DNA from: Methanoculleus thermophilus
Lineage (GTDB): Archaea > Halobacteriota > Methanomicrobia > Methanomicrobiales > Methanoculleaceae
DNA length: 64,000 bases
Assembly (NCBI RefSeq): GCF_001571405.1
Contig: NZ_BCNX01000007.1
Span: 186,001 to 250,000 of the forward strand
Direction of reading: 5' to 3'
Each line of letters opens with the position of its first letter. Position 1 is the first letter of the stretch. Both the position numbers and the translations under genes were made by a program. Shown piece after piece: positions 3,284-64,000 of the stretch. The notes beneath the pieces are model-generated. The model did not search any database and was not told where the DNA came from. It worked only from the letters and a program-made list of their open reading frames with translations.

Positions 3284-3940
3284 CCGTTTCAACTGTCGGG
3301 TGAGCGTCTTTATCGTATCACCTTCCGCCTCCTTTTTTGTAAAGACCGTTATGACGTCCCCGGGCCGAATACGGACGGCACCGCTCGGGATGATGAGATC
3401 GCCCCCTGCGCGCCGGATGGCGATGAAGACGAAGTCGCGGACCTCGAGTTCGCGGATCTCGTGGTCGACGATCGGCGCACCTTCCTCGGCAACGATCTCG
3501 AAGATGGTTCCTCCGGGGATCGAGGCGACCTGCTGGAGGTTAGGGCTTTTTGCCCAGTAATAGAGCCGGGTCGCCACCAGTTCGTCGGGATTTTCACTGA
3601 TCTTCACACCGACCTCGTTGAAGAGGTCCGAGTGCTCTCTCTGGTTGACGATCGAGACGACGTTTCGGACGTTGTAACGCTTGGCGAGCCAGCAGGTCAT
3701 CAGGTTCACGGCATCGTCGCTCGTGGTGGCCACCAGGGCGTCGGCCCGATCGATCCCGGCATCTTCGAGCACCGATTTGTCGGTCGCATTTCCGGTGATG
3801 GCGAGGACATCGTAGTGCTCCAGGATGTCGCTTGCACGCTCCTCGTCCTGATCGATCACCACCACAGAATCACCGGCGTTCACGGCGATCGCGGTCAAAT
3901 TTCGGCCGATTCCGCCCAGGCCAACGATGATGGTGTACAT
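3275..3940 (-). CDS. trkA: TrkA-family potassium channel/transport regulatory protein
   Basis: Cytoplasmic NAD(H)-binding regulator (RCK type) of a potassium uptake system. The 221-residue protein has a TrkA_N domain with the Rossmann motif [13 protein letters not shown] (residues 4-16) and the acidic [10 protein letters not shown] at the end of beta 2, followed by a TrkA_C domain (about 140-215) ending in the typical [19 protein letters not shown]. No channel or transporter subunit is adjacent, so its membrane partner must lie elsewhere. Its 3' end overlaps the convergent GGR gene by 9 bases. Confidence 0.9.
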
Positions 3941-14923: not shown

Positions 14924-16246
14924 TCACTCCTTCTTTTTGAGCACCCCGGCAGCATAGCGGGCGAGAGGATAGATGCCATCGGTCGAGGGGTGGACCTCGA
15001 CGATATCATCAAAGTCGTCGACGGTGATCCCACGCTTCATCAGGTAGCCGAGGTAGGAGAGGAGAGCCGAAGCGCCGGGGGCAGCTGCGGCGGCCCCGAT
15101 GAGCCGGCCGCTTTCGGGATCGACCCGGACCTGGGCAAACCCTGCCCAGCCGCCGGGAACATCCCAGAACGATCCGGGACCGGCGGGGGCGGGTGCCGAG
15201 AGAGTGACGCAGCCGTCGCTGGATCCGGCCGTAGCGAACGCGTAGTCGTAGCGGAGACTCAACGCCTGGGGGATCCCGGAGTAGTCCATGACCGTATCGT
15301 TGCCGAGGATGTTCTCGGCCGCAACCACGCCCTCCCGCCGTGCCGCAGGGGTGAGATACGGCGGGCCGATAACATCGCCGGCGGCATAGACTCCCGGCAC
15401 ACTCGTCCGCATCCGTGAATCAACGATAACGGAGCCGTCCGGACGCTTATCAAGGCCCTGGAGCGATTCCGAACGCGGGACGAGCCCGGTGGCAAGTAGG
15501 ACGGCATCGGCGGCCAGTTCTTCTCCGTCGGCGAGGAGGACCGATCGGACCCGGCTCCCGCCCTCGATACTCCGTGGAGCAGTATGTTCACGGATGCCGA
15601 CCCCGGCAAGGTCACGCAGCACTGCGGAGCGCATCTTTTGGTCGAGATCGCAGAGCAGCCCGCGCCGGGCGACGATCTCGACGTCCGATCCAAACGCCCG
15701 GAATATGTGGGCAAACTCCGCCGCCACCACTCCACCGCCGATGATGACCAGGCGCCGGGGAAGATCGGGCATTGCAGAGAGTGTCTGGTAGGTATAGACG
15801 CCCGAGAGGCTGGTGCCGGGGATATCGGGGATTGCCGCGCGCGACCCGGTGGCCGCGAGAACCGCGTCAGCCCGGATCTCCTCGTCGTCGATGAAGACCC
15901 GGTCACCCTCCAGCCGGGCCTCGGCGCCGTAGACGATCTCGACTCCCGCCCGGCGGGTCTCGGCTTCGAGGACCGAGGAGAGTTTCTCCTGGATCTCGCT
16001 CATCCTCCGTTTGAGCATAGGGTAGGAGAGGGTCGGGACCGAGTCGAGGATACCGAGGTCTTTTTGTGTTTGGGCGTACTCAAGGAGCCTTGCTACGTCG
16101 TTTAAGGCACAGACAGTCATGCAGCGATCATGGAGACACTGCCCCCCTATCTTGCGCTGCTCGATGAGCCGGACCTCCTTGCCGGCCTGTGCAAGGCGCA
16201 TCGCACCGAGCCTTCCCGCGGGTCCGCCGCCGATGACAACGAACAT
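14924..16246 (-). CDS. Dihydrolipoamide dehydrogenase-like pyridine nucleotide-disulfide oxidoreductase
   Basis: FAD/NAD(P)H enzyme of 440 residues. It has the FAD motif [14 protein letters not shown], a redox-active CX4C pair (C37-LHDR-C42), the NAD motif VIIGGGVVAAEFAHIF near 170, and the second FAD motif GVYAAGDVIGPPYLTPA. The C terminus carries EVHPSTDGIYP, where the usual catalytic His is kept and the following Glu of HPxxxE is replaced by Asp. No lipoyl enzyme complex is near, so its disulfide substrate is unknown. ATG 16246 begins the FAD motif; a TTG at 16252 is slightly longer. It follows the 326-residue gene by 9 bases. Confidence 0.85.
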   Translation of the reverse strand: MFVVIGGGPAGRLGAMRLAQAGKEVRLIEQRKIGGQCLHDRCMTVCALNDVARLLEYAQTQKDLGILDSVPTLSYPMLKRRMSEIQEKLSSVLEAETRRAGVEIVYGAEARLEGDRVFIDDEEIRADAVLAATGSRAAIPDIPGTSLSGVYTYQTLSAMPDLPRRLVIIGGGVVAAEFAHIFRAFGSDVEIVARRGLLCDLDQKMRSAVLRDLAGVGIREHTAPRSIEGGSRVRSVLLADGEELAADAVLLATGLVPRSESLQGLDKRPDGSVIVDSRMRTSVPGVYAAGDVIGPPYLTPAARREGVVAAENILGNDTVMDYSGIPQALSLRYDYAFATAGSSDGCVTLSAPAPAGPGSFWDVPGGWAGFAQVRVDPESGRLIGAAAAAPGASALLSYLGYLMKRGITVDDFDDIVEVHPSTDGIYPLARYAAGVLKKKE

Positions 16247-47104: not shown

Positions 47105-47512
47105 CTAATCGACGTACTCCCCCGGCACCCACCGCTCGCCGTCCCGGTAGAACTCCTTCTTCCAGATCGGGACTGTCTGCTTGATCCGGTCGATGATGTA
47201 CTCGCAGGCGGCGAACGCCTCTTTCCGGTGCCCGGCACCGACGATGATGAGGAGGATGGTCTCGCCGACCGAGAGCGATCCGACCCGGTGGACGATATCC
47301 ACCGACTCAATCGGGTATTTTTGCATCGCCTCGTCGCGGATCGCCTCCATTTCGCGGACCGCGACTTCCTCATAGACCTCAAGTTCCATCCGCTCCACCC
47401 CTCCGTCGTCCCGGACAACGCCGCAGAAGGTGACCAGGGCTCCCATGCCCGGCCTCTTCGCCGCCTCGATCATCGCGCCTGCGTCGATGACGTCCCGTGT
47501 AATTCCAATCAT
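47105..47512 (-). CDS. moaE: Molybdopterin synthase catalytic subunit
   Basis: Transfers sulfur from MoaD thiocarboxylate to precursor Z (cyclic pyranopterin monophosphate). The 135-residue protein has LVTFCGVVRDD, HRVGSLSVGETILLIIVGAGHRKEAF and the active-site end TVPIWKKEFYRDGERWV, with the conserved Lys and Arg residues. It follows moaD by 15 bases in the operon iscS-iscU-moeB-moaD-moaE. Confidence 0.94.
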   Translation of the reverse strand: MIGITRDVIDAGAMIEAAKRPGMGALVTFCGVVRDDGGVERMELEVYEEVAVREMEAIRDEAMQKYPIESVDIVHRVGSLSVGETILLIIVGAGHRKEAFAACEYIIDRIKQTVPIWKKEFYRDGERWVPGEYVD

Positions 47513-47527
47513 ATCTCCATCTCCTCC

Positions 47528-47800
47528 TCATCCACCTGCGACCGGCGGGAAGATAGCGATCTCGTCTCCGTCCGCAAGGGGATCGGGGTCGTCTCTCTTC
47601 ACCCGTCGTCCATTCCGCATCAGGATGACGTGCGCCCGGAGCGCCCCGGTCTCGTCAAAGATTGCATCGCCATTATCTCCGGCACGATCCCGGAGCGCGG
47701 CGAGAACCGCCGCCATCGTCGCCCCATCGGGGAGATCGACGAGAAGGTCGCTCCCGAGGATCTCCCGGAACCGGGCGAACGCCTTCACTCGAACCTTCAT
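47528..47800 (-). CDS. moaD: Molybdopterin synthase sulfur-carrier subunit
   Basis: Ubiquitin-fold sulfur carrier of 90 residues ending in the required GG (IFPPVAGG). The C-terminal glycine is adenylated by the MoeB-like protein and converted to a thiocarboxylate. ATG 47800 has AGAGGTG about 6 bases upstream; a GTG two codons earlier lacks one. It overlaps the end of moeB by 4 bases (ATGA), so the activating enzyme and the carrier are made together. Confidence 0.93.
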   Translation of the reverse strand: MKVRVKAFARFREILGSDLLVDLPDGATMAAVLAALRDRAGDNGDAIFDETGALRAHVILMRNGRRVKRDDPDPLADGDEIAIFPPVAGG

Positions 47801-48531
47801 TGACACACCTCTCTACTGCAGGCAGGGCATCCCGACCGCCGCTCCACGGCAAACGTCTCAAGTTTCGCCGCAAGGCCGTCCCAGAGGAGGAGCCGACCGG
47901 CGAGGAGGTCGCCGGAACCGGTGATGTACTTGATCGCCTCGTTCGCCTGGATGAGACCGATGAACCCCGGCGTCGTCCCGACGACCGGGAAGACCTCGGC
48001 GGGCGGGGCCTCCGGGAAGATGCACTCAAGGCAGGCCGTCCGGCCGGGGACGATCGTCGTCACCTGGCCGTCGAACCCCCGGATGGCACCGTGGATGAGC
48101 GGCACGCCCGACCTGATCGCCTCCCGGTTCAGGAGGTAGCGGGTCGGGAAGTTGTCCATCGCGTCCACGATCAGGTCGGCACCGGCGGCCAGGTCATGGA
48201 CGTTCGCTTCATTGATCGTCGCTTCCAGGGCTTCTATTCGGACGTCGGGGTTAACCTCCCAGAGTTTCTCCTCCGCGGATCGGACTTTCGGTATGCCGAG
48301 ATCCTTCTCCCAGTGGAGAACCTGCCGGTTTAAGTTGGTCCGGTCCACGACGTCCCTGTCCACAAGGCGGATCTCCCCTACGCCGGCGACGGCAAGATAG
48401 AGGGCGATCGGGCAGCCAAGACCCCCCGCCCCGGCGATGAAGACCTTCGCCTGCTTCAGCCGCTCCTGCCCCTCCTCACCGAAGAGGAGAATCTGCCGGC
48501 TGTAACGCTCACGTTCCCGCTCGGTGAGCAT
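47797..48531 (-). CDS. moeB: MoeB/ThiF-family sulfur-carrier adenylyltransferase
   Basis: E1-like enzyme that activates the MoaD carrier. The 244-residue protein starts RERERYSRQILLFGEEGQ, then the ATP-binding FIAGAGGLGCPIALYLA, DNFPTRYLLN and two zinc-binding pairs (ACLEC, CPACSREVC). ATG 48531 follows GGAGG by 9 bases. There is no fused rhodanese domain, so sulfur probably comes from the cysteine desulfurase encoded in the same operon. It lies 4 bases after iscU. Confidence 0.9.
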   Translation of the reverse strand: MLTERERERYSRQILLFGEEGQERLKQAKVFIAGAGGLGCPIALYLAVAGVGEIRLVDRDVVDRTNLNRQVLHWEKDLGIPKVRSAEEKLWEVNPDVRIEALEATINEANVHDLAAGADLIVDAMDNFPTRYLLNREAIRSGVPLIHGAIRGFDGQVTTIVPGRTACLECIFPEAPPAEVFPVVGTTPGFIGLIQANEAIKYITGSGDLLAGRLLLWDGLAAKLETFAVERRSGCPACSREVCQ

Positions 48532-48535
48532 CAGG

Positions 48536-48925
48536 TTATCCTCCGCTCGCCTCCGGCGAACCGTGCCGTGCCCGGTAATCGGCGATTGCCTTGCGGATCC
48601 CCTCCTCGGCGAGGACCGAACAGTGGAGCTTCTGGGGGGGCAACCCCTCCAGCGCCTCGGCGACCGCCTTGTTGGTGACCGCCAGCGCCTCGTCGAGAGT
48701 CTTTCCCCGGATGAGCTCGGTGGCCATCGAACTCGACGCAATGGCGGCGGCGCACCCGAAGGTCTTGAACTTTGCATCCACGATCCTATCCCCTTCGATC
48801 CGGAGGGTTATCCGCATGATGTCGCCGCAGGCAGGGTTCCCGACCTCACCGACACCGTCCGCATCCGGGATCTCCCCCATGTTCCGGGGGTTCATAAAAT
48901 GGTCCATGACCCGTTCGCTGTACAT
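48536..48925 (-). CDS. iscU: Fe-S cluster scaffold protein IscU/NifU-like
   Basis: A 129-residue scaffold on which IscS builds Fe-S clusters. The three ligand cysteines are present: GNPACGDIMRI (C and the conserved D), TFGCAAAIASSS and LHCSVLAEEGI. ATG 48925 (MYSERVMDHFMNPRN) is family-typical; a GTG three codons upstream is an alternative. It is 5 bases after iscS and probably translationally linked to it. Confidence 0.94.
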   Translation of the reverse strand: MYSERVMDHFMNPRNMGEIPDADGVGEVGNPACGDIMRITLRIEGDRIVDAKFKTFGCAAAIASSSMATELIRGKTLDEALAVTNKAVAEALEGLPPQKLHCSVLAEEGIRKAIADYRARHGSPEASGG

Positions 48926-48930
48926 GATGA

Positions 48931-50124
48931 TCACGCATATCGTTCAGGGCTCAGGGGGGACATCCTGCGCAGGCGCTCGATCACCCGGGGCAGGACCTCG
49001 AGGACGTAGTCGACGTCCTCCTCGGTATTCCGGGAGCCGAGGGTGAGCCGGAGGGAGCCGTGCGCCTCCTCGTGCGGAAGACCGCAGGCCACAAGAACAT
49101 GCGAGGGCTCAAGCGATGCCGATGTGCAGGCGCTCCCCGTCGAGGCGGCGATCCCGAGTGCATCGAGCATAAGGAGGATCGATTCGCCCTCGACGTAGCG
49201 GAAGGCGACGTTCACGTTGTTCGGGAGCCGCTCGGTAGGGTGACCGTTTAAGCGGGTCTCCGGGATGGTCTCGAGGATTCCCTTGATCAGTCGGTCTCGC
49301 ATCGCGGCAAGCCTTGGGGACTTCTCAGGCATCTCGGCGACGGCTAGTTCGATAGCCTTTCCGAGCCCCACGATCCCCGGAACGTTCTCGGTCCCGGCCC
49401 GTCTTCCCCGTTCCTGCGCCCCGCCGTCCATGAACGTCCCGATCCGGGTCTTATCCCGGATATAGAGCGCCCCCGTCCCCTTCGGGCCGCCGAACTTGTG
49501 ACCCGAGAGCGAGAGGAGGTCGATCCCCATGTTGTCAACGTCGATCGGTATCGCCCCGATCGCCTGGACGGCGTCGGTATGGAAAGGAACGCCGTGGTCG
49601 TGAGCAACTTTCGCGATCTCGGCGACCGGCTGGATCGTCCCGATCTCGTTGTTTGCCGTCATCACCGAGACGAGGATGGTTTTGTCGGTGATCGCCTCCT
49701 CGACCGAGGCAGGGTCAACCCGGCCGAACTCGTCGACAGGGAGGTAGGTGACCCGGTAGCCCTGCTTCTCAAGGCTCTGGCAGGTGTGGATGACGGCGTG
49801 GTGCTCGATCGCGGAGGTGATGATATGATCGCCTTTCTTTCTGTTTGCGGCTGCAACCCCCTTGATAGCCCAGTTGTCGGCCTCGGTTCCCCCGGAGGTG
49901 AAATAGATCTCCTTGGGGTTTGCGCCGATCGCATCCGCCACCTGTCTCCGCGCCTTCTCCAGTGTCACCCGCGCCTCGCGGGCGAGGGCGTAGACGGAGG
50001 AGGGGTTCCCGAACCGCTCCGTAAAGCAGGGGAGCATCTCTTCGACGACCTCCGGCCGGACCGGGGTCGTCGCCGCGTGGTCCATATAGACCAGCCGTGA
50101 TCTCCGATTAACCGTAGTATTCAT
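48931..50124 (-). CDS. iscS: Cysteine desulfurase (IscS/NifS group I)
   Basis: PLP enzyme that removes sulfur from cysteine as a persulfide. The 397-residue protein begins RLVYMDHAATTPVRPEVV, has the PLP lysine in LSLSGHKFGGPKGTG, AIEHHAVI near residue 100, and the persulfide cysteine in STGSACTSASLEPS. ATG 50124 has GGGGTG upstream and gives the family N terminus. It leads the leftward operon with iscU, moeB, moaD, moaE and the QueG-like gene. The palindrome TTAACAATTGTTAA (50172-50185) lies about 48 bases upstream, close to its TATA region, so it is probably repressed through that site. Confidence 0.95.
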   Translation of the reverse strand: MNTTVNRRSRLVYMDHAATTPVRPEVVEEMLPCFTERFGNPSSVYALAREARVTLEKARRQVADAIGANPKEIYFTSGGTEADNWAIKGVAAANRKKGDHIITSAIEHHAVIHTCQSLEKQGYRVTYLPVDEFGRVDPASVEEAITDKTILVSVMTANNEIGTIQPVAEIAKVAHDHGVPFHTDAVQAIGAIPIDVDNMGIDLLSLSGHKFGGPKGTGALYIRDKTRIGTFMDGGAQERGRRAGTENVPGIVGLGKAIELAVAEMPEKSPRLAAMRDRLIKGILETIPETRLNGHPTERLPNNVNVAFRYVEGESILLMLDALGIAASTGSACTSASLEPSHVLVACGLPHEEAHGSLRLTLGSRNTEEDVDYVLEVLPRVIERLRRMSPLSPERYA

Positions 50125-50231: not shown

Positions 50232-50555
50232 ATGAAACTCCCCTGCCAGTTAATTGTATGGAATGTGCTGCCCGCAATCCGTGCGGCGATCGCAGAAGAA
50301 CTAATTAACATGGGCGTCTCGCAGCTCGAGGCCGCCCGCCTCCTTGAGATGACACCCTCAGCGATCTCCCAGTACCGCACCGGGAAGCGGGGCTACCGGA
50401 TCGTCTTTGAAGGCGAGGTAAAGGAGGCAATCAACCGGCTTGCGCAGGACCTCAAGGCCGGCCAGGTGGACGACCTCGCCTCCCGGATATGTGAGATATG
50501 CACGCAGATCCGCGAAGAGAACCAGCTCGGCGAACTGTGCGATACAGAAGCATAA
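50232..50555 (+). CDS. XRE-type HTH regulator with C-terminal cysteine cluster, putative Fe-S or redox sensor
   Basis: A 107-residue DNA-binding protein. The HTH is about residues 29-52 (VSQLEAARLLEMTPSAISQY), followed by a helical region and a tail with C87, C90 (CEIC) and C103; C5 is the fourth cysteine. A CxxC plus a distal Cys could bind an Fe-S cluster or zinc. It is divergent from iscS and first in the operon with larE, a SufS-like gene and fdhD. I infer that it senses Fe-S or sulfur status and binds the palindrome beside it. ATG 50232 gives the cysteine-containing start; GTG 50223 is slightly longer. Confidence 0.8.
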   Translation: MKLPCQLIVWNVLPAIRAAIAEELINMGVSQLEAARLLEMTPSAISQYRTGKRGYRIVFEGEVKEAINRLAQDLKAGQVDDLASRICEICTQIREENQLGELCDTEA

Positions 50556-50569
50556 GGAGAACGATACCG

Positions 50570-51370
50570 ATGAACTCCAGGTGCAGCAAAGAAGCGGTCA
50601 TCGAGGCCCTCAAGGAGAAGGGTCCTTTGCTTATCGCATACTCCGGAGGCGTCGACAGTTCGCTCCTCGCCGCACTGGCCGTCCGCGCGCTCGGGAAGGA
50701 GCGGGTCCGGTGCGTCCTCCTTGACTCGCCGCTCATCCCCCGGCGAGAGGTCGAGGCGGCGCGAAAGACCGCAGCCCGGCTGGACCTCCCCCTGGAGGTC
50801 GTGGCGTTCCCGATTCTTGAGGATGAGGCCTTCCGGGCGAATCGGCCCGACCGCTGCTACACCTGCAAGAAGGCATCGGCCCGCCTGCTCAAAGATCTGG
50901 CCCGGCGGGAAGGGATCGGCACGGTCGCGGACGGGACGAACCTCTCCGACCTCGGGACCTACCGGCCGGGGCTTGCCGCAGGCGACGAGGAGGGGATCTC
51001 GCACCCCCTCGCCGATGCGTGTGCGACGAAAGACGATGTCCGGAGAATCGCCCATGAGTGCGGACTATCGCTCTGGAGCAAACCATCGGCGGCCTGCCTT
51101 GCCACCCGCCTCCCCTATGGGACCGAGATCACAGAGGAGGCGCTCGCCCGGATCGAGGCGGCCGAGGATGCACTGCATGATCGGGGATTTTCCCAGGTGC
51201 GGGTCCGCCTTCACGGTGACGTCGCCCGGATCGAGGTGCCGCCCGAGGAGATGGAGCGGCTCTTTTCCATGCGGGATGATGTGACGGCGGCCCTCCGAAA
51301 GATCGGTTTTACCTACGTCGCCCTGGACCTTGCCGGGTACCGGAGTGGGAGTATGGATGAGGTCCTATGA
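50570..51370 (+). CDS. larE: LarE-family ATP-dependent sulfur transferase
   Basis: PP-loop enzyme of the LarE/NcsA-like group that thiolates pyridinium dicarboxylate nucleotide in nickel-pincer cofactor synthesis. The 266-residue protein has the PP-loop YSGGVDSSLLAAL (24-36), C96/C99 (CYTC) and C176 (SAACLATR). C176 corresponds to the sulfur-donating cysteine of sacrificial LarE; having all three cysteines matches LarE variants that bind a [4Fe-4S] cluster and turn over catalytically (established for some members). larB and larC are not in the window. It is 14 bases after the XRE regulator gene. Confidence 0.88.
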   Translation: MNSRCSKEAVIEALKEKGPLLIAYSGGVDSSLLAALAVRALGKERVRCVLLDSPLIPRREVEAARKTAARLDLPLEVVAFPILEDEAFRANRPDRCYTCKKASARLLKDLARREGIGTVADGTNLSDLGTYRPGLAAGDEEGISHPLADACATKDDVRRIAHECGLSLWSKPSAACLATRLPYGTEITEEALARIEAAEDALHDRGFSQVRVRLHGDVARIEVPPEEMERLFSMRDDVTAALRKIGFTYVALDLAGYRSGSMDEVL

Positions 51371-52551
51371 GGATCGAAGACTGTAGAACGGACTTCCCCA
51401 TCACACGGGACCTCATCTACTTAGACAGCGCCGCAACATCCCTCACCCCAAAGCCTGTGGTCCAGGCGATGGTCGAGTACGACCTTCGTTACCGCGCAAA
51501 CGTGGGAAGAGGCGTCCACCGGCTCGCCAATGTCGCCACCCACCGCTACCGGGACGCCCACGACGCCATAAAGTCGTTCATTGGGGGCGAGGGCGGCACC
51601 CTTACGATCACCAGAAACACTACCGAGGCGATCGGAGCGGTCGCCGCCGGCCTCGACTGGAAGAAGGGCGACCGGGTGGTGACGACGCTCCTCGAGCACC
51701 ACTCAAACCTCCTACCCTGGCTCCGGCTCCGAGAACGTGGAGTCGCGGTGGATATCGTTCGGCCGAATTCCGATGGCGGCCTCGAGATAGCCGATCTGGA
51801 GGCGGCCATCCGCGACGAGACCCGGCTCGTCGCCGTCACCCACGCCTCAAATGTCCTCGGCACCGTCCTCCCCGTCCGGGAGATCGCCGGGATCTGCCGC
51901 GACCGGGGCGCAAAGTTCCTCGTCGACGGAGCCCAGTCGACCCCGCACATCCCGGTCGACGTCGCCGCCATCGGGTGCGACTACTTCTGCTTCTCGGGCC
52001 ATAAGATGCTTGGGCCCACCGGGACGGGCGGGCTCTGGATGCGCCGGCCGGATCTCGAACCGCTCCATGTCGGGGGCGGTTCGATCGAGAGCGCGTCGTC
52101 CGACGGCTACACCCTTGCTCCCGGTGAAGAGCGATACGAGGCGGGGACGCCGCCGGTCGCCGGCACCATCGGGCTTGCCCGGGCGGCGGCATATCTCCGG
52201 GAGATCGGGATGGACGCCGTCCGGCGGCACGAGGAGCGGCTCACCGCCCGGCTCATCGACGGGCTTGCGGCGCTCGACGGCGTTACGGTCGCGGGCCTGG
52301 ATGCCGGGACCGATCGGATCGGCGTCGTCTCGTTCACGGTCGAGGGGATGCACCCGCACGAGGTGGCCCAGATCCTCGACGAGGCGTCCGCCGTTCTGGT
52401 CCGGTCGGGGCACCACTGCTGCCAGCCGCTGATGGAGCACCTCGGTCTCCCGGACGGGACGGTGCGGGCGAGCACCTACATCTACACCACAACAGAGGAG
52501 ATTGATACGTTGATAGCCACCGTTGAAGAGATCTCCCGGAGGGCGATCTGA
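51367..52551 (+). CDS. SufS/CsdA-like cysteine desulfurase (group II)
   Basis: A 394-residue PLP enzyme of the group II desulfurases. Motifs in order: IYLDSAATSLTPKPV, LLEHHSNLLPW, VDGAQSTPHIPVDV, PLP lysine in CFSGHKMLGPTGTGG, and VRSGHHCCQPLMEHL with the catalytic cysteine. It overlaps larE (ATGA) and fdhD (one base), which ties it to sulfur transfer for LarE and FdhD rather than to a SUF Fe-S system; no sufB/C/D genes are seen. A second desulfurase (iscS) lies on the divergent operon. Confidence 0.92.
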   Translation: MRIEDCRTDFPITRDLIYLDSAATSLTPKPVVQAMVEYDLRYRANVGRGVHRLANVATHRYRDAHDAIKSFIGGEGGTLTITRNTTEAIGAVAAGLDWKKGDRVVTTLLEHHSNLLPWLRLRERGVAVDIVRPNSDGGLEIADLEAAIRDETRLVAVTHASNVLGTVLPVREIAGICRDRGAKFLVDGAQSTPHIPVDVAAIGCDYFCFSGHKMLGPTGTGGLWMRRPDLEPLHVGGGSIESASSDGYTLAPGEERYEAGTPPVAGTIGLARAAAYLREIGMDAVRRHEERLTARLIDGLAALDGVTVAGLDAGTDRIGVVSFTVEGMHPHEVAQILDEASAVLVRSGHHCCQPLMEHLGLPDGTVRASTYIYTTTEEIDTLIATVEEISRRAI

Positions 52552-53330
52552 TGCTCTACCGGGAACTGCCGATCGTCAAAGTCGACGACGAGTCGTTCGT
52601 CGCCGCGACTCACCCCGTCGTCGAGGAGATGCCTCTCTCCGTGACCGTCAACGGGCGCCACGCCCTCACCGCCATGACAAGCCCGGTGATGCTCCGGGAG
52701 TTCGTCGTGGGGTACCTCTACACGGAACGGATCGTCCGGGAACTCGATGAGATCGAGTCGATCCGGATCGAGGGGAATACCGCAAGTGTCCTCACAAAGA
52801 ACCCGTTCTCGATCCTCACCTCGCACAAGACCGTCCTCTCCGGGTGCGGCGGGACCGCGTCGTTCCTCGACGCCGGGCGCCTTCCTGCGATCCGCTCCGA
52901 TCTCACACTCGCGCCCGAGACGATCCGGGCGGCGACGAAAGAGACGCTCGATTCGGATCTCCACAGGATCACCGGCGGCATCCACCTCGTCGGGCTCTTC
53001 GACGGAGAGGGGAAGGCGATTCTGATCGCCGCGGATATCGGCCGGCACAACGCGCTCGATCGGGTCATCGGCCACGGGCTTCTTGCCGGGATCGATCTTT
53101 CGCGGACGTTTGCGGTCAGTTCCGGACGGATATCCTCCGAGATGGTCAGGAAGTGCCTGGTCGCAAACATCCCTGTGATCGTCTCGCGGGGGGCGACGAC
53201 CACCACCGCCGTCGAGGCCGCAAAGGCCGGCGGGCTCACGATCGTCGGGTTCGTCCGGAGCAGAAAGATGAACATCTACACCGGGTGGGAGCGGGTCCGC
53301 GGCGCGTCACAGGCGGCCGCCGGCGAGTGA
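52551..53330 (+). CDS. fdhD: Formate dehydrogenase accessory sulfurtransferase FdhD
   Basis: Inserts sulfur from a desulfurase into the Mo/W-bis-MGD cofactor of formate dehydrogenase. The 259-residue protein has ADIGRHNALDRVIGHGL, SSGRISSEMVRKC and IPVIVSRGATTT, all family signatures. The sulfur-carrying loop, usually CxxC (CGVCG), reads LSGCGGTA here with a single cysteine, C99, so persulfide transfer would use one cysteine. It ends the regulator-larE-sufS operon. Formate dehydrogenase genes are not in the window. Confidence 0.92.
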   Translation: MLYRELPIVKVDDESFVAATHPVVEEMPLSVTVNGRHALTAMTSPVMLREFVVGYLYTERIVRELDEIESIRIEGNTASVLTKNPFSILTSHKTVLSGCGGTASFLDAGRLPAIRSDLTLAPETIRAATKETLDSDLHRITGGIHLVGLFDGEGKAILIAADIGRHNALDRVIGHGLLAGIDLSRTFAVSSGRISSEMVRKCLVANIPVIVSRGATTTTAVEAAKAGGLTIVGFVRSRKMNIYTGWERVRGASQAAAGE

Positions 53331-53989: not shown

Positions 53990-54886
53990 ATGGACTTAAA
54001 AGATCTCAGGTCCGGTACCGAACTCCTGAAGAGAGGGTTTGCGTCGATGCAGAAAGGCGGCGTCATCATGGATGTCGTGAACGCCGAACAGGCACGAATT
54101 GCAGAGGAGGCGGGTGCCGTTGCGGTGATGGCGCTCGAACGCGTCCCTGCCGACATCCGGGCGGCAGGCGGCGTGGCCCGGATGGCCGATCCGGAGAAGA
54201 TCGTGGAGATCATCGATGCGGTCTCGATCCCGGTGATGGGCAAGGTACGGATCGGCCATTTCGTCGAGGCGCAGGTACTCGAGGCGCTCGGCGTCGATAT
54301 GATCGACGAGAGCGAGGTTCTCACGCCTGCCGACGAGGAGTACCACATCGAGAAGAAGCGGTTCTCTGTCCCGTTCGTCTGCGGAGCCCGAAACCTCGGC
54401 GAAGCCCTCCGACGGATCGATGAGGGAGCGGCGATGATCCGGACAAAGGGCGAGGCCGGCACCGGCAACGTCGTCGAGGCTGTCCGGCACATGCGTGCGA
54501 TCATGGGCGAGATCCGGCTCCTGCAGGGGATGAGCGAGCAGGAGTTGATCAACCGTGCTCGCGAGATAGAAGCGCCGGCGGACCTGGTCATCGAGTGCGC
54601 AGAGCGCGGCCGGCTCCCGGTGGTGAACTTCTCGGCCGGCGGGATTGCAACGCCTGCCGACGCGGCGCTGATGATGCAGCTCGGCGCCGACGGGGTCTTT
54701 GTGGGCTCGGGCATCTTCAAGTCGTCCAACCCGGAACGGATGGCAAGAGCGATCGTGGAAGCGGTGAACCACTACGACGACCCGGCGGCAATCGCCGGCG
54801 CATCCCGTGGGCTCGGCGAGGCGATGCCGGGGCTTGACGTCCACCTCCTCAGCAAAAGCGAGACGCTCCGGTACCGCGGGCGCTGA
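53990..54886 (+). CDS. pdxS: Pyridoxal 5'-phosphate synthase lyase subunit PdxS
   Basis: Makes PLP from ribose-5-phosphate, glyceraldehyde-3-phosphate and ammonia together with the glutaminase PdxT. The 298-residue (beta/alpha)8 barrel has [20 protein letters not shown], the catalytic lysine in [32 protein letters not shown] with the second lysine, and [16 protein letters not shown]. GGAGaaaaaa precedes the ATG. pdxT is not adjacent. The operator upstream suggests control together with the PLP enzyme IscS. Confidence 0.96.
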
Positions 54887-56525: not shown

Positions 56526-56780
56526 GTGAATGAGAAGAGACTGGCAAAGATCGGACACCTCCCGCCGTCGGCAAAACTCGTGTACAAGGTTCTCGAAACA
56601 GGCGGTCAGTTCACCCAGAAAGATCTGATCCGCGAGACCTCTCTGCCGGCGCGCACCGTGAGATACGCTCTGAACAGACTCAAAGAAGAAGGGATACTTA
56701 TAGAGCGGCACTATTTCATCGACGCCCGCCAGAGCCTGTACGGACTGAACGTCCCGGAGCCGGAGGTGATAACCGCATGA
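56526..56780 (+). CDS. Small winged-helix transcriptional regulator (MarR/ArsR-like)
   Basis: An 84-residue protein that is almost entirely a winged helix: LPPSAKLVYKVLETGGQFTQ, the recognition helix PARTVRYALNRLKEEG and a wing ending at YFIDARQ. It lacks an effector domain. The frame's only start is the GTG at 56526. An operator-like palindrome is 57 bases upstream, so autoregulation is likely. It is convergent with the nitrogenase-like operon and may control it, but that is inference from position. Confidence 0.8.
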   Translation: MNEKRLAKIGHLPPSAKLVYKVLETGGQFTQKDLIRETSLPARTVRYALNRLKEEGILIERHYFIDARQSLYGLNVPEPEVITA

Positions 56781-56964: not shown

Positions 56965-58320
56965 TCACAGAGGCCCGACAAACGAACTGATGATCTCTTC
57001 AAACAGGGTCAAGGCTCCGTCGAACCCGGCGTAGGTCCGATTCAGGACGAGCCGGTTCAATGCAGGGAACGCGACGGTGATGGGGAGCGCGCCCCACTCC
57101 GCGAGAGCAATAGGGGCTTCGAGGGAACTTGCAAACAGGAACAGGAACGATCTTCCCAACAAGTTCTGCCGTATAAGATGCGCATCTGTCTCGAAGACCA
57201 CCTCCGGTTTGAGAGGGGTTTCAAGGTCTTCTGTGAGCCACCTGACAATCTCGTCACGCACCTCCTCGGGCGGGTCGTCGGTGATCTGGACGATATCCGG
57301 CAGGTAGCCAAGCTCATTGATGAGGAAGCGCGAGATGCCGATCGCAGTCCCCGAATCCGCCGCAACCGCAAAGAACGGGTGCGGCCGGACAAGCATGTGG
57401 GCATCGCCTCCGTATTCGATGAACCGGTACACCCGCCGCTCTTCCCGCGCGATCACGCGCTCGACAACCTCTTCCGATATATCGAAGACCTTTGCCACCC
57501 TGCGCAGAAACTCCGCAGTCTGCTTCGGCCCCACGGGGACCGAAGGGAAGGTCAGGTACGGTGTGCCGAACTTCTCTTTCAGGAGTTTCGCCGTCCGGTG
57601 GCCGTTCCAGGTGGAGAGCACGATGTTGTACTCTGCAGCAGGAATGTCACGCAGCTGAGCCGCCCCGTCGAATTCCGCGAGGAAGACATTGGCCGTTATC
57701 CCGATCTCGGCGAGAAGGTTCTTAATGGTCCGCGCATCGCCTTTCCAGAAGACATGCTGGTATGGGACGATACCGAATACGTTCACCGTCTTTGGCCGGA
57801 TCTTCTCCGCAGGTTTGAGAAGATCCTCTATCAACCCCTCGAAGAAGAGCTCATAGCCTTCGTATGAGTTTCTGGCAAACCCGGAGGACCGCACGAAGAA
57901 GATATCATTCTTCTCGCGGAACTCCTTGACGACAGAGTTTACGTCGTCCCCGATCAGCGACGGGACGCAGCCGTTTATGACCGCATAGAGTTCTCCGTCC
58001 ATCAACTCAGTGCTCGCGCGGATCAGGTCCCGGAGCTTCTCCTCACCTCCGAATACCACGTGGTGCTCCACCAGGGAAGAGCAGGGGGTGCTGGTCCCCC
58101 CCTGCGGTCCGCCTGCGTTCTGTCCCCCGGCGTAGAGTTGCCCGAAGAGCTGCCCGATACCGCACCCGGCACCGGAGTGAAGGATGGGGACGACGCCGTA
58201 GATCCCGACCGCCGTGCCAAGAGCTCCTCCGAGGGCGCAGGAGAACCTGGGGGCCTCTATTGCAGAGGACTCCGGGACCTTCCCCGGGCCGTATGCCTCT
58301 TCTGCCTTAGAATCCGTCAT
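56965..58320 (-). CDS. Nitrogenase-like component 1 beta (NifK-like) protein
   Basis: A 451-residue subunit of the NifK/oxidoreductase-nitrogenase component 1 family. The three P-cluster cysteine positions are kept: C28 (RFSCALGGALG), C53 (LHSGAGCGIG) and C118 (INGCVPSLIGDDV). SSLVEHHVVFGG (81-92) matches the NifK SSMTEDAAVFGG signature. The protein lacks the long N-terminal extension of molybdenum NifK. It starts one base after the NifD-like stop and ends the operon. It should form a heterotetramer with the NifD-like protein. It is not close in size or partner set to BchB or CfbD. Confidence 0.9.
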   Translation of the reverse strand: MTDSKAEEAYGPGKVPESSAIEAPRFSCALGGALGTAVGIYGVVPILHSGAGCGIGQLFGQLYAGGQNAGGPQGGTSTPCSSLVEHHVVFGGEEKLRDLIRASTELMDGELYAVINGCVPSLIGDDVNSVVKEFREKNDIFFVRSSGFARNSYEGYELFFEGLIEDLLKPAEKIRPKTVNVFGIVPYQHVFWKGDARTIKNLLAEIGITANVFLAEFDGAAQLRDIPAAEYNIVLSTWNGHRTAKLLKEKFGTPYLTFPSVPVGPKQTAEFLRRVAKVFDISEEVVERVIAREERRVYRFIEYGGDAHMLVRPHPFFAVAADSGTAIGISRFLINELGYLPDIVQITDDPPEEVRDEIVRWLTEDLETPLKPEVVFETDAHLIRQNLLGRSFLFLFASSLEAPIALAEWGALPITVAFPALNRLVLNRTYAGFDGALTLFEEIISSFVGPL

Positions 58321-58321
58321 A

Positions 58322-59875
58322 TTATACCACCCTCTTCATGTAGTACAGCGGGTTGCTCTGCTTGAACCACCAGTCGCGGTAGCTGTCTTTCGTCTTCTCT
58401 TTGAGGGTCTTCTGGAACGACCTGCTCTTCAATGCCTGGAGCAGGAAGTTTCCGTAGGCCACCGCCCCCGTATAGCCGCTCTGGGCGCTCCAGGGATGCG
58501 GGTCGCCGCGCAGGGCGTGGATCCGGGTCGCACCCTTGATCCGCTTGTACGCTCCTCCCTGGAACGGGCAGGTGAGCGTCAGATCGGGGTCGAGCTTCGT
58601 CGTGATATGCGACTGCTCCGCCGCCTGGAACGTATTGACCAGCAGGTCGAAGTCGCCGACCCGGGAGACGACCTCCTCGAGTTCTTCGAGGATCAGGTTG
58701 TCGTAGTCCTGCGACATCGCCGCGGGCGACACCAGTCCGAGTTCGTCAAAGAAGGGCATCTGCGCCAGCAGCCGCCCCTGGCCGAGCGAGCCGAGAACGC
58801 TCACCTTGCTGCCCTTCTCTGCGGCGATCCTGTCGAACTCGGACCGTATGGCCTGCATCTTCGGCATCCAGATCCGGTGCTCCTCCTCGATGAGGGCCTC
58901 GACTTCGTCGGACTTGCCGGTGTACTTCCCGATCTGCCTGAGCCATTCGTCGGTGTTGGTGATGCCCATCGGCGAAGGGTACAGGAAGTAGGGTACGCCG
59001 TACTCCTGCTCGAGCCCGCGTGAGAGGTAGTCGGTGTAGGTGGGGCAGAGCGGTGCGGTCACGGCGGCCTCCGAGAGCTGCTGGAACTGCTCGACCGTTG
59101 CAAACTCCGGGATAAGGTTTGCACGGAGTCCGATCTTGCCGAGCAGGCGCTGGATCTCGAGGCGGTCCTGCCAGGTATACGAGAGCATACTCGCCACGTT
59201 CACGAGGTCCGTCTGCTTCTTCTCCGGCTTCTTCACCAGATACTTCAGCACCGCATGCCAGAAGGCGTCATAGCCGGTCTGCACGATCCTGGAGCGCACC
59301 CCCTCACAGTGGATGGGCACGAGCCGTGCGTCGATATGCGGCTGAACGTCGGCAACCGCCCCCTCGATATCCTCCCCGATGATGCCGGTGGTGCAGGAGG
59401 TAAGGATGAAGATGGCTTTGGGGTTATACCGCTCTTGAGCCTCGTATATTGCCTTCTTCAACTTATCCCCCGCTCCGTAGACGACGTCCTTCTCGCGCAG
59501 ATTCGTGGTCATCCAGTGGAGGTCGTACTCGGCCGGTCTTCCCAGCTCGACGGGAACCCCCCGGAAGAGTTCCCGGTACCCGAGGGCCGAGGACGAGCAC
59601 CCGACCGGCGCGTGGAAGATCGTCGCAGCATCCCGTATGGTGCCGACGCGGACGGAGAGGTAGAAGTTCAGCGAGCAGCCGGATGACTGTGCAAAACCAC
59701 GCTCGTGGTTCTGCAGGCACCCCGACCGGGCCTTCTCGATGAGGTCGCTTGCCTTGCCGTAGAAGATGTTGATGCCGTTCGCCCTCTGTTCGCGGTTGGG
59801 GCAGGTCGCCTGGGAGAGGTCTATCCTCTTCTCGTAGAGAGCCGAATCGGCCTCATCTCGTGTTGCAAATACCAT
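58322..59875 (-). CDS. Nitrogenase-like component 1 alpha (NifD-like) protein
   Basis: A 517-residue catalytic-subunit homologue. P-cluster ligands C67 (SSGCSLN), C93 (HAPVGCSS) and C161 (LTSCTTGIIGEDIEG) align with NifD C62, C88 and C154. C277 (APLCPTYTDY) and H460 (DPHPWSAQSGYTG) are at the places of the cofactor ligands C275 and H442, so an Fe8S9C-type cluster may be bound. By contrast, HCEGVRSRIVQTGYDAF replaces CEGFRGVSQSLGHHIAN: the Q191 and H195 equivalents are Val and Tyr, and the V70 position is Arg. N2 reduction is therefore unlikely; a different reductive reaction is expected. Alignments are by eye. Confidence 0.9.
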   Translation of the reverse strand: MVFATRDEADSALYEKRIDLSQATCPNREQRANGINIFYGKASDLIEKARSGCLQNHERGFAQSSGCSLNFYLSVRVGTIRDAATIFHAPVGCSSSALGYRELFRGVPVELGRPAEYDLHWMTTNLREKDVVYGAGDKLKKAIYEAQERYNPKAIFILTSCTTGIIGEDIEGAVADVQPHIDARLVPIHCEGVRSRIVQTGYDAFWHAVLKYLVKKPEKKQTDLVNVASMLSYTWQDRLEIQRLLGKIGLRANLIPEFATVEQFQQLSEAAVTAPLCPTYTDYLSRGLEQEYGVPYFLYPSPMGITNTDEWLRQIGKYTGKSDEVEALIEEEHRIWMPKMQAIRSEFDRIAAEKGSKVSVLGSLGQGRLLAQMPFFDELGLVSPAAMSQDYDNLILEELEEVVSRVGDFDLLVNTFQAAEQSHITTKLDPDLTLTCPFQGGAYKRIKGATRIHALRGDPHPWSAQSGYTGAVAYGNFLLQALKSRSFQKTLKEKTKDSYRDWWFKQSNPLYYMKRVV

Positions 59876-59905
59876 ATCAATTTCCCCGATCTCAGGTGCA
59901 TGCCG

Positions 59906-60796
59906 CTACGTGCTCGTCGAGGCTATCTCCCGTGACCCGGAACCCGACCGCGCGTCGTTCTTCTTCGTAAGGAGCCGATCTGACCACGACTCCGCCCACA
60001 CTTTCAGTTCCGCTGCCTCGAGCGGCTTTGGCACGTACCTCTCCTCGTTCTTCAGCAGCGTTCTTGCGAGACTGCGATACACTTCTGCCTGCGTTGAGTC
60101 CGGATCGTACTCGATTGCGGTCTGGCCCAGAAGTTCGCTCCGGGTGATCGTATCGGACCGCGGGACGTACTCTGCAATGGTGGTGCCGGTCCGTGACGCG
60201 AAATCATCGATGATCTCCCGCTGTACCGGCAGCGTCACCGAGTTGGCGATGATGCCGGAGAAGAGCGCACCCCCGCTGCTGGCGTACTTCTGTATCCCCT
60301 TGAAGAGGTTGTTTGCAGCGTAGATGGCCATGAAGTCCGCAGACGTCACCGTGTAGACCTGCTCGGCGACGCCCTCGCGGATGGGGACGGAGAAACCGCC
60401 GCAGACCACGTCTCCAAGGACGTCGTAGAGGACGACGTCCGGCTTGTACTCCTCAAAGACCTTCTTCTGCCGGAGGAGCTCGATTGCAGCGATGATCCCG
60501 CGTCCGGCGCAGCCGACGCCCGGCTCCGGGCCCCCGGCCTCTATGCAGAGGACGCCGCCGAACCCTTCGTAGACGATATCATCCAGCTCGACCGGCTTTC
60601 CGCTCCTGATGGCATCGAGGACCGTCGGGATCGATCTCCCTCCACGGAGGTTGTTGGTCGAGTCGCTCTTTGGGTCGCATCCGATCTGGATGACGCGTTT
60701 TCCCATATCGGCAAGGGCTGCGCTGAGATTGGATGTCGTCGTCGATTTTCCGATTCCGCCTTTGCCATAGATGGCAACACTTCGGATCTTCGTCAT
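59906..60796 (-). CDS. Nitrogenase iron protein-like (NifH-like) ATPase
   Basis: A 296-residue electron donor to the NifDK-like pair. It has the P-loop YGKGGIGKSTTTSNL (10-24), IGCDPKSDSTNN, the two bridging cluster cysteines C96 (GPEPGVGCAGRG) and C132 (GDVVCGGFSVPI), and the R99 that matches the ADP-ribosylated arginine of NifH. ATG 60796 follows GGAGG and gives the family N terminus; the longer frame does not. It is the first gene of the HDK operon; a TATA-like tgtatattt (minus strand, 60858-60866) and a ATTTGCGGCAAAT palindrome (60889-60901) lie upstream. Confidence 0.93.
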   Translation of the reverse strand: MTKIRSVAIYGKGGIGKSTTTSNLSAALADMGKRVIQIGCDPKSDSTNNLRGGRSIPTVLDAIRSGKPVELDDIVYEGFGGVLCIEAGGPEPGVGCAGRGIIAAIELLRQKKVFEEYKPDVVLYDVLGDVVCGGFSVPIREGVAEQVYTVTSADFMAIYAANNLFKGIQKYASSGGALFSGIIANSVTLPVQREIIDDFASRTGTTIAEYVPRSDTITRSELLGQTAIEYDPDSTQAEVYRSLARTLLKNEERYVPKPLEAAELKVWAESWSDRLLTKKNDARSGSGSREIASTST

Positions 60797-60857
60797 GGAA
60801 CCTCCTTGTGGAGTATACAGTTCTCCTCGGGAAGGGATAATATCCGGCAAACCGGCC

Positions 60858-60901
60858 AAATATACACGATTTTTCTGGAAAAAGAGTCATTTGCGGCAAA
60901 T
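60858..60901 (-). promoter_or_regulatory. Promoter region of the nitrogenase-like operon with 13-base palindrome
   Basis: On the coding strand a TATA-like tgtatatttgg (60856-60866) is preceded by ATTTGCCGCAAAT (60889-60901), a perfect palindrome around one central base. AATTTGCCGCAA occurs also at 53775-53786 and, in part, at 55556-55565. The GGAA-N6-TTCC operator of NrpR is not seen here. Confidence 0.5.
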
Positions 60902-60987: not shown

Positions 60988-61524
60988 TCACGGGTCGATG
61001 CTCTGTCCCGGCGGCGTCCGGGTTTTGGATGCAGGAGGTGATTCCAGGTCGACCGCCTTGATCGGGTTTTTGCAATGCGGACACCGGAAGTCGCACTCCC
61101 ATCCCTCGTACGGGCAGATCGTCATGGAGAGATCGGCGAGCGGGTGGCCTTTCCCCCGGATCTCGAACTCCTTGTACCAGCCGAACGGCGCCCGCTTCAC
61201 CTCGACGCCAACAGAGCGGAGTTCGTCTTCAAGGCTCTGCAGGATGGAGAGCGCACACTCCGGGGAGCCGAGGGTGTTCGTGAGGTGGGCATAGGGGTAG
61301 ATCAAAACCCGGCTCACCTTCAACTTCGCGAGTCGATCGAGGATGTTTGCCTTCGCGCTTGCAACGACGTACGACGGGTTTTTCTCGTCGAGTTTCTCAA
61401 CGCAACAGAAAAGAACCACACATTCATCCATCCTCTCTTCCCGGGGTTCAACGGCCTCCGCCATCTTCGTCCGCTTTGTGGGGCGGTACCACATAGTATC
61501 CGCATGGATGGAGAGTATTCTCAT
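60988..61524 (-). CDS. Stand-alone ThrRS editing-domain protein with four-cysteine tail
   Basis: A 178-residue homologue of the N-terminal editing domain of archaeal threonyl-tRNA synthetase, a D-Tyr-tRNA deacylase-like fold that removes mis-attached serine. ILSIHADTMWYRPTKR, IYPYAHLTNTLGSPE (H80) and APFGWYKEFEIRGKGHPLA (K118) are its signature regions. Uniquely, after the fold comes ICPYEGWECDFRCPHCKNPI with C137, C144, C148 and C151, a possible zinc site, and then a disordered tail. It would act in trans on Ser-tRNA(Thr). A GGAGGAG SD lies 9 bases upstream. It lies between metY and the nitrogenase-like operon. Confidence 0.85.
   Translation of the reverse strand: MRILSIHADTMWYRPTKRTKMAEAVEPREERMDECVVLFCCVEKLDEKNPSYVVASAKANILDRLAKLKVSRVLIYPYAHLTNTLGSPECALSILQSLEDELRSVGVEVKRAPFGWYKEFEIRGKGHPLADLSMTICPYEGWECDFRCPHCKNPIKAVDLESPPASKTRTPPGQSIDP

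Positions 61525-61643: not shown

Positions 61644-64000
<2,357 letters not shown>

Follow-up and report, generated by a model that had tools for sequence, protein, structure and literature searches.

The window analysed here is a stretch of 64,000 nt, and the protein under study, which we call REG, is encoded in it by a 107-aa ORF with an ATG start (Table 1). This helix-turn-helix (HTH) protein carries C5, C87-x2-C90 and C103 just where the initial annotation had placed them, and its gene is divergent from iscS, as was also claimed there, with 107 bp between the two. Equally in line with that annotation, REG separates Fe-S from sulfur-transfer genes: iscS, iscU, a thiF/moeB-like gene, moaD and moaE lie on one side, and larE, a sufS-like gene and fdhD on the other. 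Further along are pdxS (PLP is the desulfurase cofactor), a small winged-HTH (wHTH) gene and, towards the window's end, genes for MetY and SepCysS.

Table 1. Genes, predicted operators and their putative targets in and just beyond the window (WE, window-equivalent position)
Feature	Position	Strand	Remarks
MoaE	47105..47512	-	Pfam
MoaD family protein	47528..47806	-	NCBIfam
ThiF/MoeB-like adenylyltransferase	47797..48531	-	start estimated; Pfam, NCBIfam
iscU, NifU-type scaffold	48536..48934	-	NCBIfam
iscS, NifS-type cysteine desulfurase	48931..50124	-	NCBIfam
predicted operator TTAACAATTGTTAA	50172..50185		divergent iscS/REG promoter
REG, HTH regulator with C5, C87-x2-C90, C103	50232..50555	+
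larE, ATP-dependent sacrificial sulfur transferase	50570..51370	+	NCBIfam
SufS-like cysteine desulfurase	51367..52551	+	NCBIfam 397 bits, under sufS cut-off of 475
fdhD	52551..53330	+	NCBIfam
predicted operator TTCACAATTGTGAA	53862..53875		before pdxS, directly upstream of TATATTTAAAA
pdxS, PLP synthase	53990..54886	+
predicted operator TTAACAATTGTGAA	56454..56467		before small wHTH gene
small wHTH protein	56526..56780	+
MetY-type homocysteine synthase	61644..62936	-
SepCysS	62951..64000	-	upstream tRNA-Cys and operator just beyond window end
tRNA-Cys upstream of SepCysS	64329-64399 (WE)
predicted operator of this tRNA-Cys	64406-64419 (WE)		before tRNA-Cys, then SepCysS, MetY, ThrRS-editing-domain gene, nitrogenase-like genes
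island site	64931 (WE)		137 nt before another tRNA-Cys; candidate target only
island site	66944 (WE)		tRNA-Cys, then ThiF and MoaD
island site	68406 (WE)		between NcsA-like operon and radical-SAM gene
island site	69861 (WE)		nadA
island site with one-mismatch neighbour	78898 and 78926 (WE)		tRNA-Cys, SepCysS, MetY, MetX, two DUF genes, ThiI, CysK, CysE

Two further features of the window deserve mention. A stand-alone ThrRS-editing-domain homologue (60988-61524) sits behind SepCysS and MetY and, speculatively, might serve in editing Ser-tRNA-Cys or in freeing tRNA-bound cysteine. Downstream of this SepCysS-MetY-editing-domain unit come nitrogenase-like genes (56965-60859) of NifH/NifD/NifD type, which score under the nitrogenase cut-offs and may encode a sulfur-salvage reductase.

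Fold and conserved cysteines of REG

The HTH of REG spans residues 20-53 and matches HTH_3 (PF01381) at 21.6 bits, under the Pfam gathering cut-off of 23, and NCBIfam gives REG no assignment. Hence the label XRE, under which the protein was first annotated, holds in the sense that REG is XRE-like by sequence homology, yet below formal HTH_3 membership. An AlphaFold2 model built with 43 sequences (mean pLDDT 81) predicts five helices (residues 4-26, 31-37, 42-50, 61-75 and 82-96) and puts C5 at the beginning of helix 1, both C87 and C90 on helix 5 and C103 in the tail, whose residues 99-107 have pLDDT values below 50. Among solved structures, Foldseek gave a best E of 0.68 and VIA-align a best Z of 4.6, to TrpR (rmsd 4.4 over 63 residues), neither list containing a convincing structural neighbour. 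The host genome also encodes a REG paralogue (L002) with C7, C12 and a CxxC, which exceeds the Pfam cut-off for HTH_3 (29.2 bits) and lacks the palindrome described below over the 140 bp upstream of it. The wHTH gene of the window resembles one that, in five genomes (L002, L029, L030, L032, L244), has its end immediately ahead of the REG paralogue, a hint that wHTH and Cys-HTH protein may work as a pair. In one MAG (L085:5016-5915) the REG frame continues stop-free into LarE sequence for at least 300 aa, which may reflect either a fusion of REG with LarE or the loss of a stop codon.

Conservation of the cysteines in orthologues had been proposed as the check on REG's annotation and could be followed in 80 named relatives, the best 80 of 248, nearly all of them labelled as Methanomicrobiales or Methanosarcinales genera. 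Throughout these best 80, C5 and the CxxC are both kept (80/80 each), and a further Cys lies within 26 residues of the CxxC in 79, L098 being the one without. Since the 80 were gathered by two DNA patterns, one of which contained the N-terminal PCQ, conservation of C5 is in part ascertained. Another 22 close homologues, found by protein search without the PCQ pattern (E < 1e-28), have C5 in 22/22 and the CxxC in 21/22 (L022 reads CxxY), and 21 further stand-alone relatives (L224-L244) have the CxxC in 21/21 and an N-terminal Cys in 20/21 (the frame of L242 starts after that position), with additional downstream cysteines being frequent. Nine longer matches (L245-L253), however, have neither C5 nor a CxxC at the REG position; the three of them scanned for domains are all HTH plus ThiN. 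This indicates that the cysteine set is a trait of the stand-alone proteins rather than of the HTH fold, and, judged from this pattern of conservation, the cysteines of REG are not there by chance.

A palindrome in REG promoters and its predicted regulon

The promoter shared by REG and iscS contains a 14-bp palindrome, TTMACAATTGTKAA, which reads TTAACAATTGTTAA upstream of the host REG and mostly TTCACAATTGTGAA in other genera. Three exact copies occur in the window, and the nine of the whole host genome (2.22 Mb) all fall at C7:236172-264911, within one 29-kb sulfur island. Among the loci of the best 80 of 248 relatives, a site no more than 260 bp away from where REG starts is exact (TTMACAATTGTKAA) in 49, has one mismatch in 15 and two in five, and is missing from 11, so that at most one mismatch is seen before REG in 64/80 loci versus 0/1600 mononucleotide shuffles; the two-mismatch level was reached by 18/1600 shuffles. 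The 11 loci with no REG site at up to two mismatches include Methanomethylovorans loci (L042, L054-L056) where REG also lies away from sulfur genes. Exact sites number 77 over the same best 80 loci (822 kb), while 11 of 12 permuted-palindrome controls are without any; the remaining control has eight, but TTAACAATTGTTAA itself is among the strings it covers.

Presence of the palindrome goes along with presence of REG. Within the genus (35 genomes), an orthologue (E < 1e-28) is found in 11 genomes and the exact site in those 11 only (0/24 others; Fisher 2.4e-9, uncorrected for genome relatedness). With 26 more distant genomes added, the site occurs in 24/26 genomes with REG (E < 1e-18) and in 1/35 without it, the one being G037 (see below), again uncorrected for relatedness. 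In the phylum (390 genomes), 159 have REG (E <= 1e-28) and 71 the exact string TTCACAATTGTGAA, 69 of these 71 being REG-positive, with the string absent from 90 of the 159 and relatedness likewise uncorrected. G209 and G295 lack REG and have one exact site each. An exception is G037, with 11 exact sites and no close REG: nine copies inspected at eight loci (L154, L159, L161, L163, L165, L167, L169, L171) carry TTAACAATTGTTAA in flanks that are near-identical over 50 bp on both sides, which points to a repeated element, so we treat them as unrelated to REG. In the counts, G037 was nonetheless kept as REG-negative with sites.

In principle, a different regulator encoded in the island might bind the palindrome, with REG a mere neighbour, and the small wHTH protein, whose gene itself stands behind a predicted operator, would be a candidate. 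Against this, a second, more distant REG relative in six genomes (36-45% identical, E 1e-23 to 1e-20) has TTAACAATTGTTAA 33 bp before its own start in five of them (G039, G044, G049, G054, G059), no palindrome being listed before that of the sixth (G048), and in two members at an even greater distance (L229, L232) AACAATTGTT is found near the start codon. Such sites tie the palindrome to the protein family and not to the isc locus, which to our minds makes another regulator very unlikely and leaves REG as the preferred candidate for binding the site.

What the palindrome may control can be read from the genes next to it (Table 1). Besides REG's own sites, the loci of the best 80 of 248 relatives hold 65 sites with at most one mismatch, near which start sepCysS (12), REG again (12), nadA (11), radical-SAM genes (6), iscS/sufS (5), corrinoid-protein-like genes (5), the editing-domain gene (4), pdxS (3), cysK (2), metY (2) and singletons; some have no gene start nearby. 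Gene content near REG in the same 80 loci, some of which are short, includes iscS/sufS-type genes (in 55), thiF (50), larE (47), fdhD (46), moaE (36), nadA (34) and iscU (31); gene names in these loci, those next to the sites included, were set from sequence and checked against NCBIfam/Pfam for host genes only. Some loci (L063, L084, L098 and others) also have TfuA-like and YcaO-like genes near REG, so named from their sequence and together the pair for thioamide formation. One genome with a metX-metY-iscSU-REG cluster, which we take to be that of Methanosarcina acetivorans, shows the order metX-metY-tRNA-Cys-[site]-nadA-iscU-iscS-[two sites]-REG-[site]-cysK-cysE, where of the four sites three have a single mismatch each, and in four more distant genomes (L235, L236, L237, L243) iscS-iscU is followed by a REG family member. 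The CysE of the host island (L129:7370-8320) is a fusion protein whose C-terminal part is a SufT/MIP18-like domain of Fe-S assembly.

Together, the predicted targets comprise Fe-S and sulfur genes, cysteine and homocysteine biosynthesis (SepCysS, CysK/CysE, MetX/MetY), tRNA-Cys, tRNA thiolation, PdxS and NadA. From these patterns, operator and regulon are very likely real. The IscR- or SufR-like part first assigned to REG fits insofar as the protein seems to regulate genes for Fe-S clusters and sulfur, but it is too narrow for a target list that goes on to cysteine and homocysteine biosynthesis, tRNA-Cys, tRNA thiolation, PdxS and NadA.

A pattern search finds five tRNA-Cys genes in the host, and all but one belong to the sulfur island; these four tRNA-Cys(GCA) genes lie within 15 kb just beyond the window (L129:829-899, 1222-1294, 3365-3437 and 15316-15387), and three of the four are 7-11 nt from a predicted operator. 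In 12 of 16 tRNA-Cys/site pairs, 3-12 nt separate the site from the 5' end of the tRNA; in the other four, the distances are 36, 47, 131 and 137 nt. The sites are found downstream of TATA-like boxes, that is between box and gene, and several tRNA-Cys genes have two, the first right after the TATA-like box (e.g. CCTATAAATATTCACAATTGTTAT, 14 bp, TTCACAATTGTGAA, tRNA). Of the genomes of the genus, 9/11 with REG and 0/24 without carry an accessory tRNA-Cys (TGGCGGAACGGCTACGCGG...), and every time an exact site lies at a distance of 13-19 nt from the start of the pattern. SepCysS scores above cut-off in 55/61 relatives, with or without REG, and in three host copies, two of them in the island; the island copies are therefore additional.

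A sulfur-responsive repressor as the proposed mechanism

From sequence we have conserved cysteines, a conserved operator, its target genes and the co-occurrence of operator and REG. On these we base a model in which REG would bind TTMACAATTGTKAA in core promoters, probably as a dimer, and so repress its own larE-sufS-fdhD operon and the divergent isc operon together with tRNA-Cys and SepCysS (synthesis of cysteine on tRNA), CysK/CysE, MetX/MetY, NadA, PdxS and the tRNA-thiolation genes. Under a shortage of sulfur or Fe-S, the C5/C87/C90/C103 site would lose or change its ligand, whereupon REG would leave its operators and the target genes would be expressed. Sites at REG itself argue for autoregulation. 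As a whole, an autoregulated repressor that controls a sulfur-trafficking regulon and senses Fe-S or sulfur status through four cysteines is, on balance, the reading we favour.

That REG is a repressor seems likely, because a protein bound between TATA box and gene start should keep transcription from initiating. The pdxS site abuts the TATA box and that of iscS is further upstream of a TATA-like box, positions that would also fit an activator at some targets, so REG might activate altogether or play a dual role by activating isc and repressing tRNA-Cys and sepCysS. We consider this unlikely given that the sites of tRNA-Cys/sepCysS and of several nadA genes lie downstream of TATA-like boxes. 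In our preferred reading as a repressor, the input signal is argued from the target list to be sulfur or Fe-S status, and an Fe-S cluster as the ligand is possible, though we stop somewhat short of favouring it.

REG may, alternatively, bind the palindrome and control the regulon while its cysteines hold structural zinc and the signal is a small thiol, a metabolite, tRNA charging or similar. Relatives in other families (L229, L230, L232, L235) extend the CxxC to CxxC...CxxH...CxxC patterns resembling zinc sites, and a later CxxH...CxxC is retained in three of the nine longer matches (L245, L246, L249), which are HTH+ThiN-type proteins. The regulon content, however, points to sulfur or Fe-S status as input, and we rate structural zinc as somewhat unlikely. 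Much the same holds for a pure thiol/persulfide redox switch that has neither a metal nor a cluster site. CxxC pairs work in this way in other archaeal regulators, among them SurR, and the cysteines of MsvR affect DNA binding according to excerpts of PMC3729527. Four conserved cysteines at both ends of REG suggest, albeit weakly, a ligand site over a simple disulfide, making such a switch fairly improbable.

Taken a step further, the sulfur-responsive repressor would be an Fe-S- or sulfide-sensing archaeal protein that controls transcription of tRNA-Cys, so that supply of the very tRNA that carries cysteine synthesis in these methanogens is set by sulfur status, with accessory copies of tRNA-Cys accompanying their regulator in the island. 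To our knowledge, a dedicated transcription factor for individual tRNA genes would be unusual, and we put this forward tentatively, as a rather doubtful possibility. Methanogens rely strongly on Fe-S proteins and use sulfide as their sulfur source, and little is known of the way in which they regulate the supply of sulfur and of clusters. Our analysis provides a candidate regulator, an exact predicted operator and a list of targets, and if the model is true, REG would be a regulator of how these methanogens handle sulfur.

REG compared with known regulators and gene clusters

Searches of open-licence papers found no description of REG or its palindrome and no match to TTCACAATTGTGAA as text. 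New here are the predicted operator and the regulon it appears to mark, wider than the IscR analogue suggested before. Like IscR, a member of Rrf2, REG is predicted to be autoregulatory and to control the isc operon from an operator in the shared REG/isc promoter, and its cysteines could hold a cluster. Unlike IscR, it has no Rrf2 domain, and its predicted regulon adds tRNA-Cys, SepCysS, CysK/E, MetX/Y, NadA and PdxS; the cysteine spacing of IscR differs as well. Searched with REG, Pfam (to E 1) and NCBIfam (to E 0.1) give no Rrf2 match, and NCBIfam at the same limit gives no SufR model either, which bears out the view that REG belongs to a family unrelated to either. Closer in its HTH are HTH-ThiN proteins, which we take to be ThiR-type regulators: a profile of REG picks up HTH+ThiN proteins with E values from 8.8e-13 to 9e-9 (three of nine scanned), and the HTHs are homologous. 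REG, however, has no ThiN (no PF10120 match), the ThiN proteins lack C5 and a CxxC at the REG position, and the host's one ThiN protein is encoded elsewhere, apart from REG.

MsvR, as excerpts of PMC3729527 describe it, is likewise a methanogen autorepressor with conserved cysteines and an inverted repeat in its own promoter, but it has a V4R domain and binds TTCGTA-N4-TACGAA, whereas REG has a different palindrome and no V4R match in Pfam. HdrR was dropped as a described relative of REG, being a winged-HTH protein that controls hdrBCA, with 'inverted repeat' absent from its text (PMC11218639).

In terms of gene clusters, those of clade VII SepCysS, tRNA-Cys, tRNA-Thr-ED and sulfur genes, with editing-domain genes beside clade VII SepCysS, have been described (PMC5424206) and are of the same kind as the island's tRNA-Cys-SepCysS-MetY-editing-domain unit, although the section devoted to them names no regulator or operator. 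In M. acetivorans isc2, iscS2-iscU2 (IscS2, MA2718; IscU2, MA2717) are clustered with methionine and NAD genes (PMC7585200), an account whose passages considered here name no regulator at the cluster and in whose main text 'xre' and 'tRNA' are absent. The gene order with the REG orthologue in the apparent M. acetivorans genome fits this cluster, and because that genome matches a genetically tractable species with an apparent REG orthologue beside iscSU2, the question is directly testable there.
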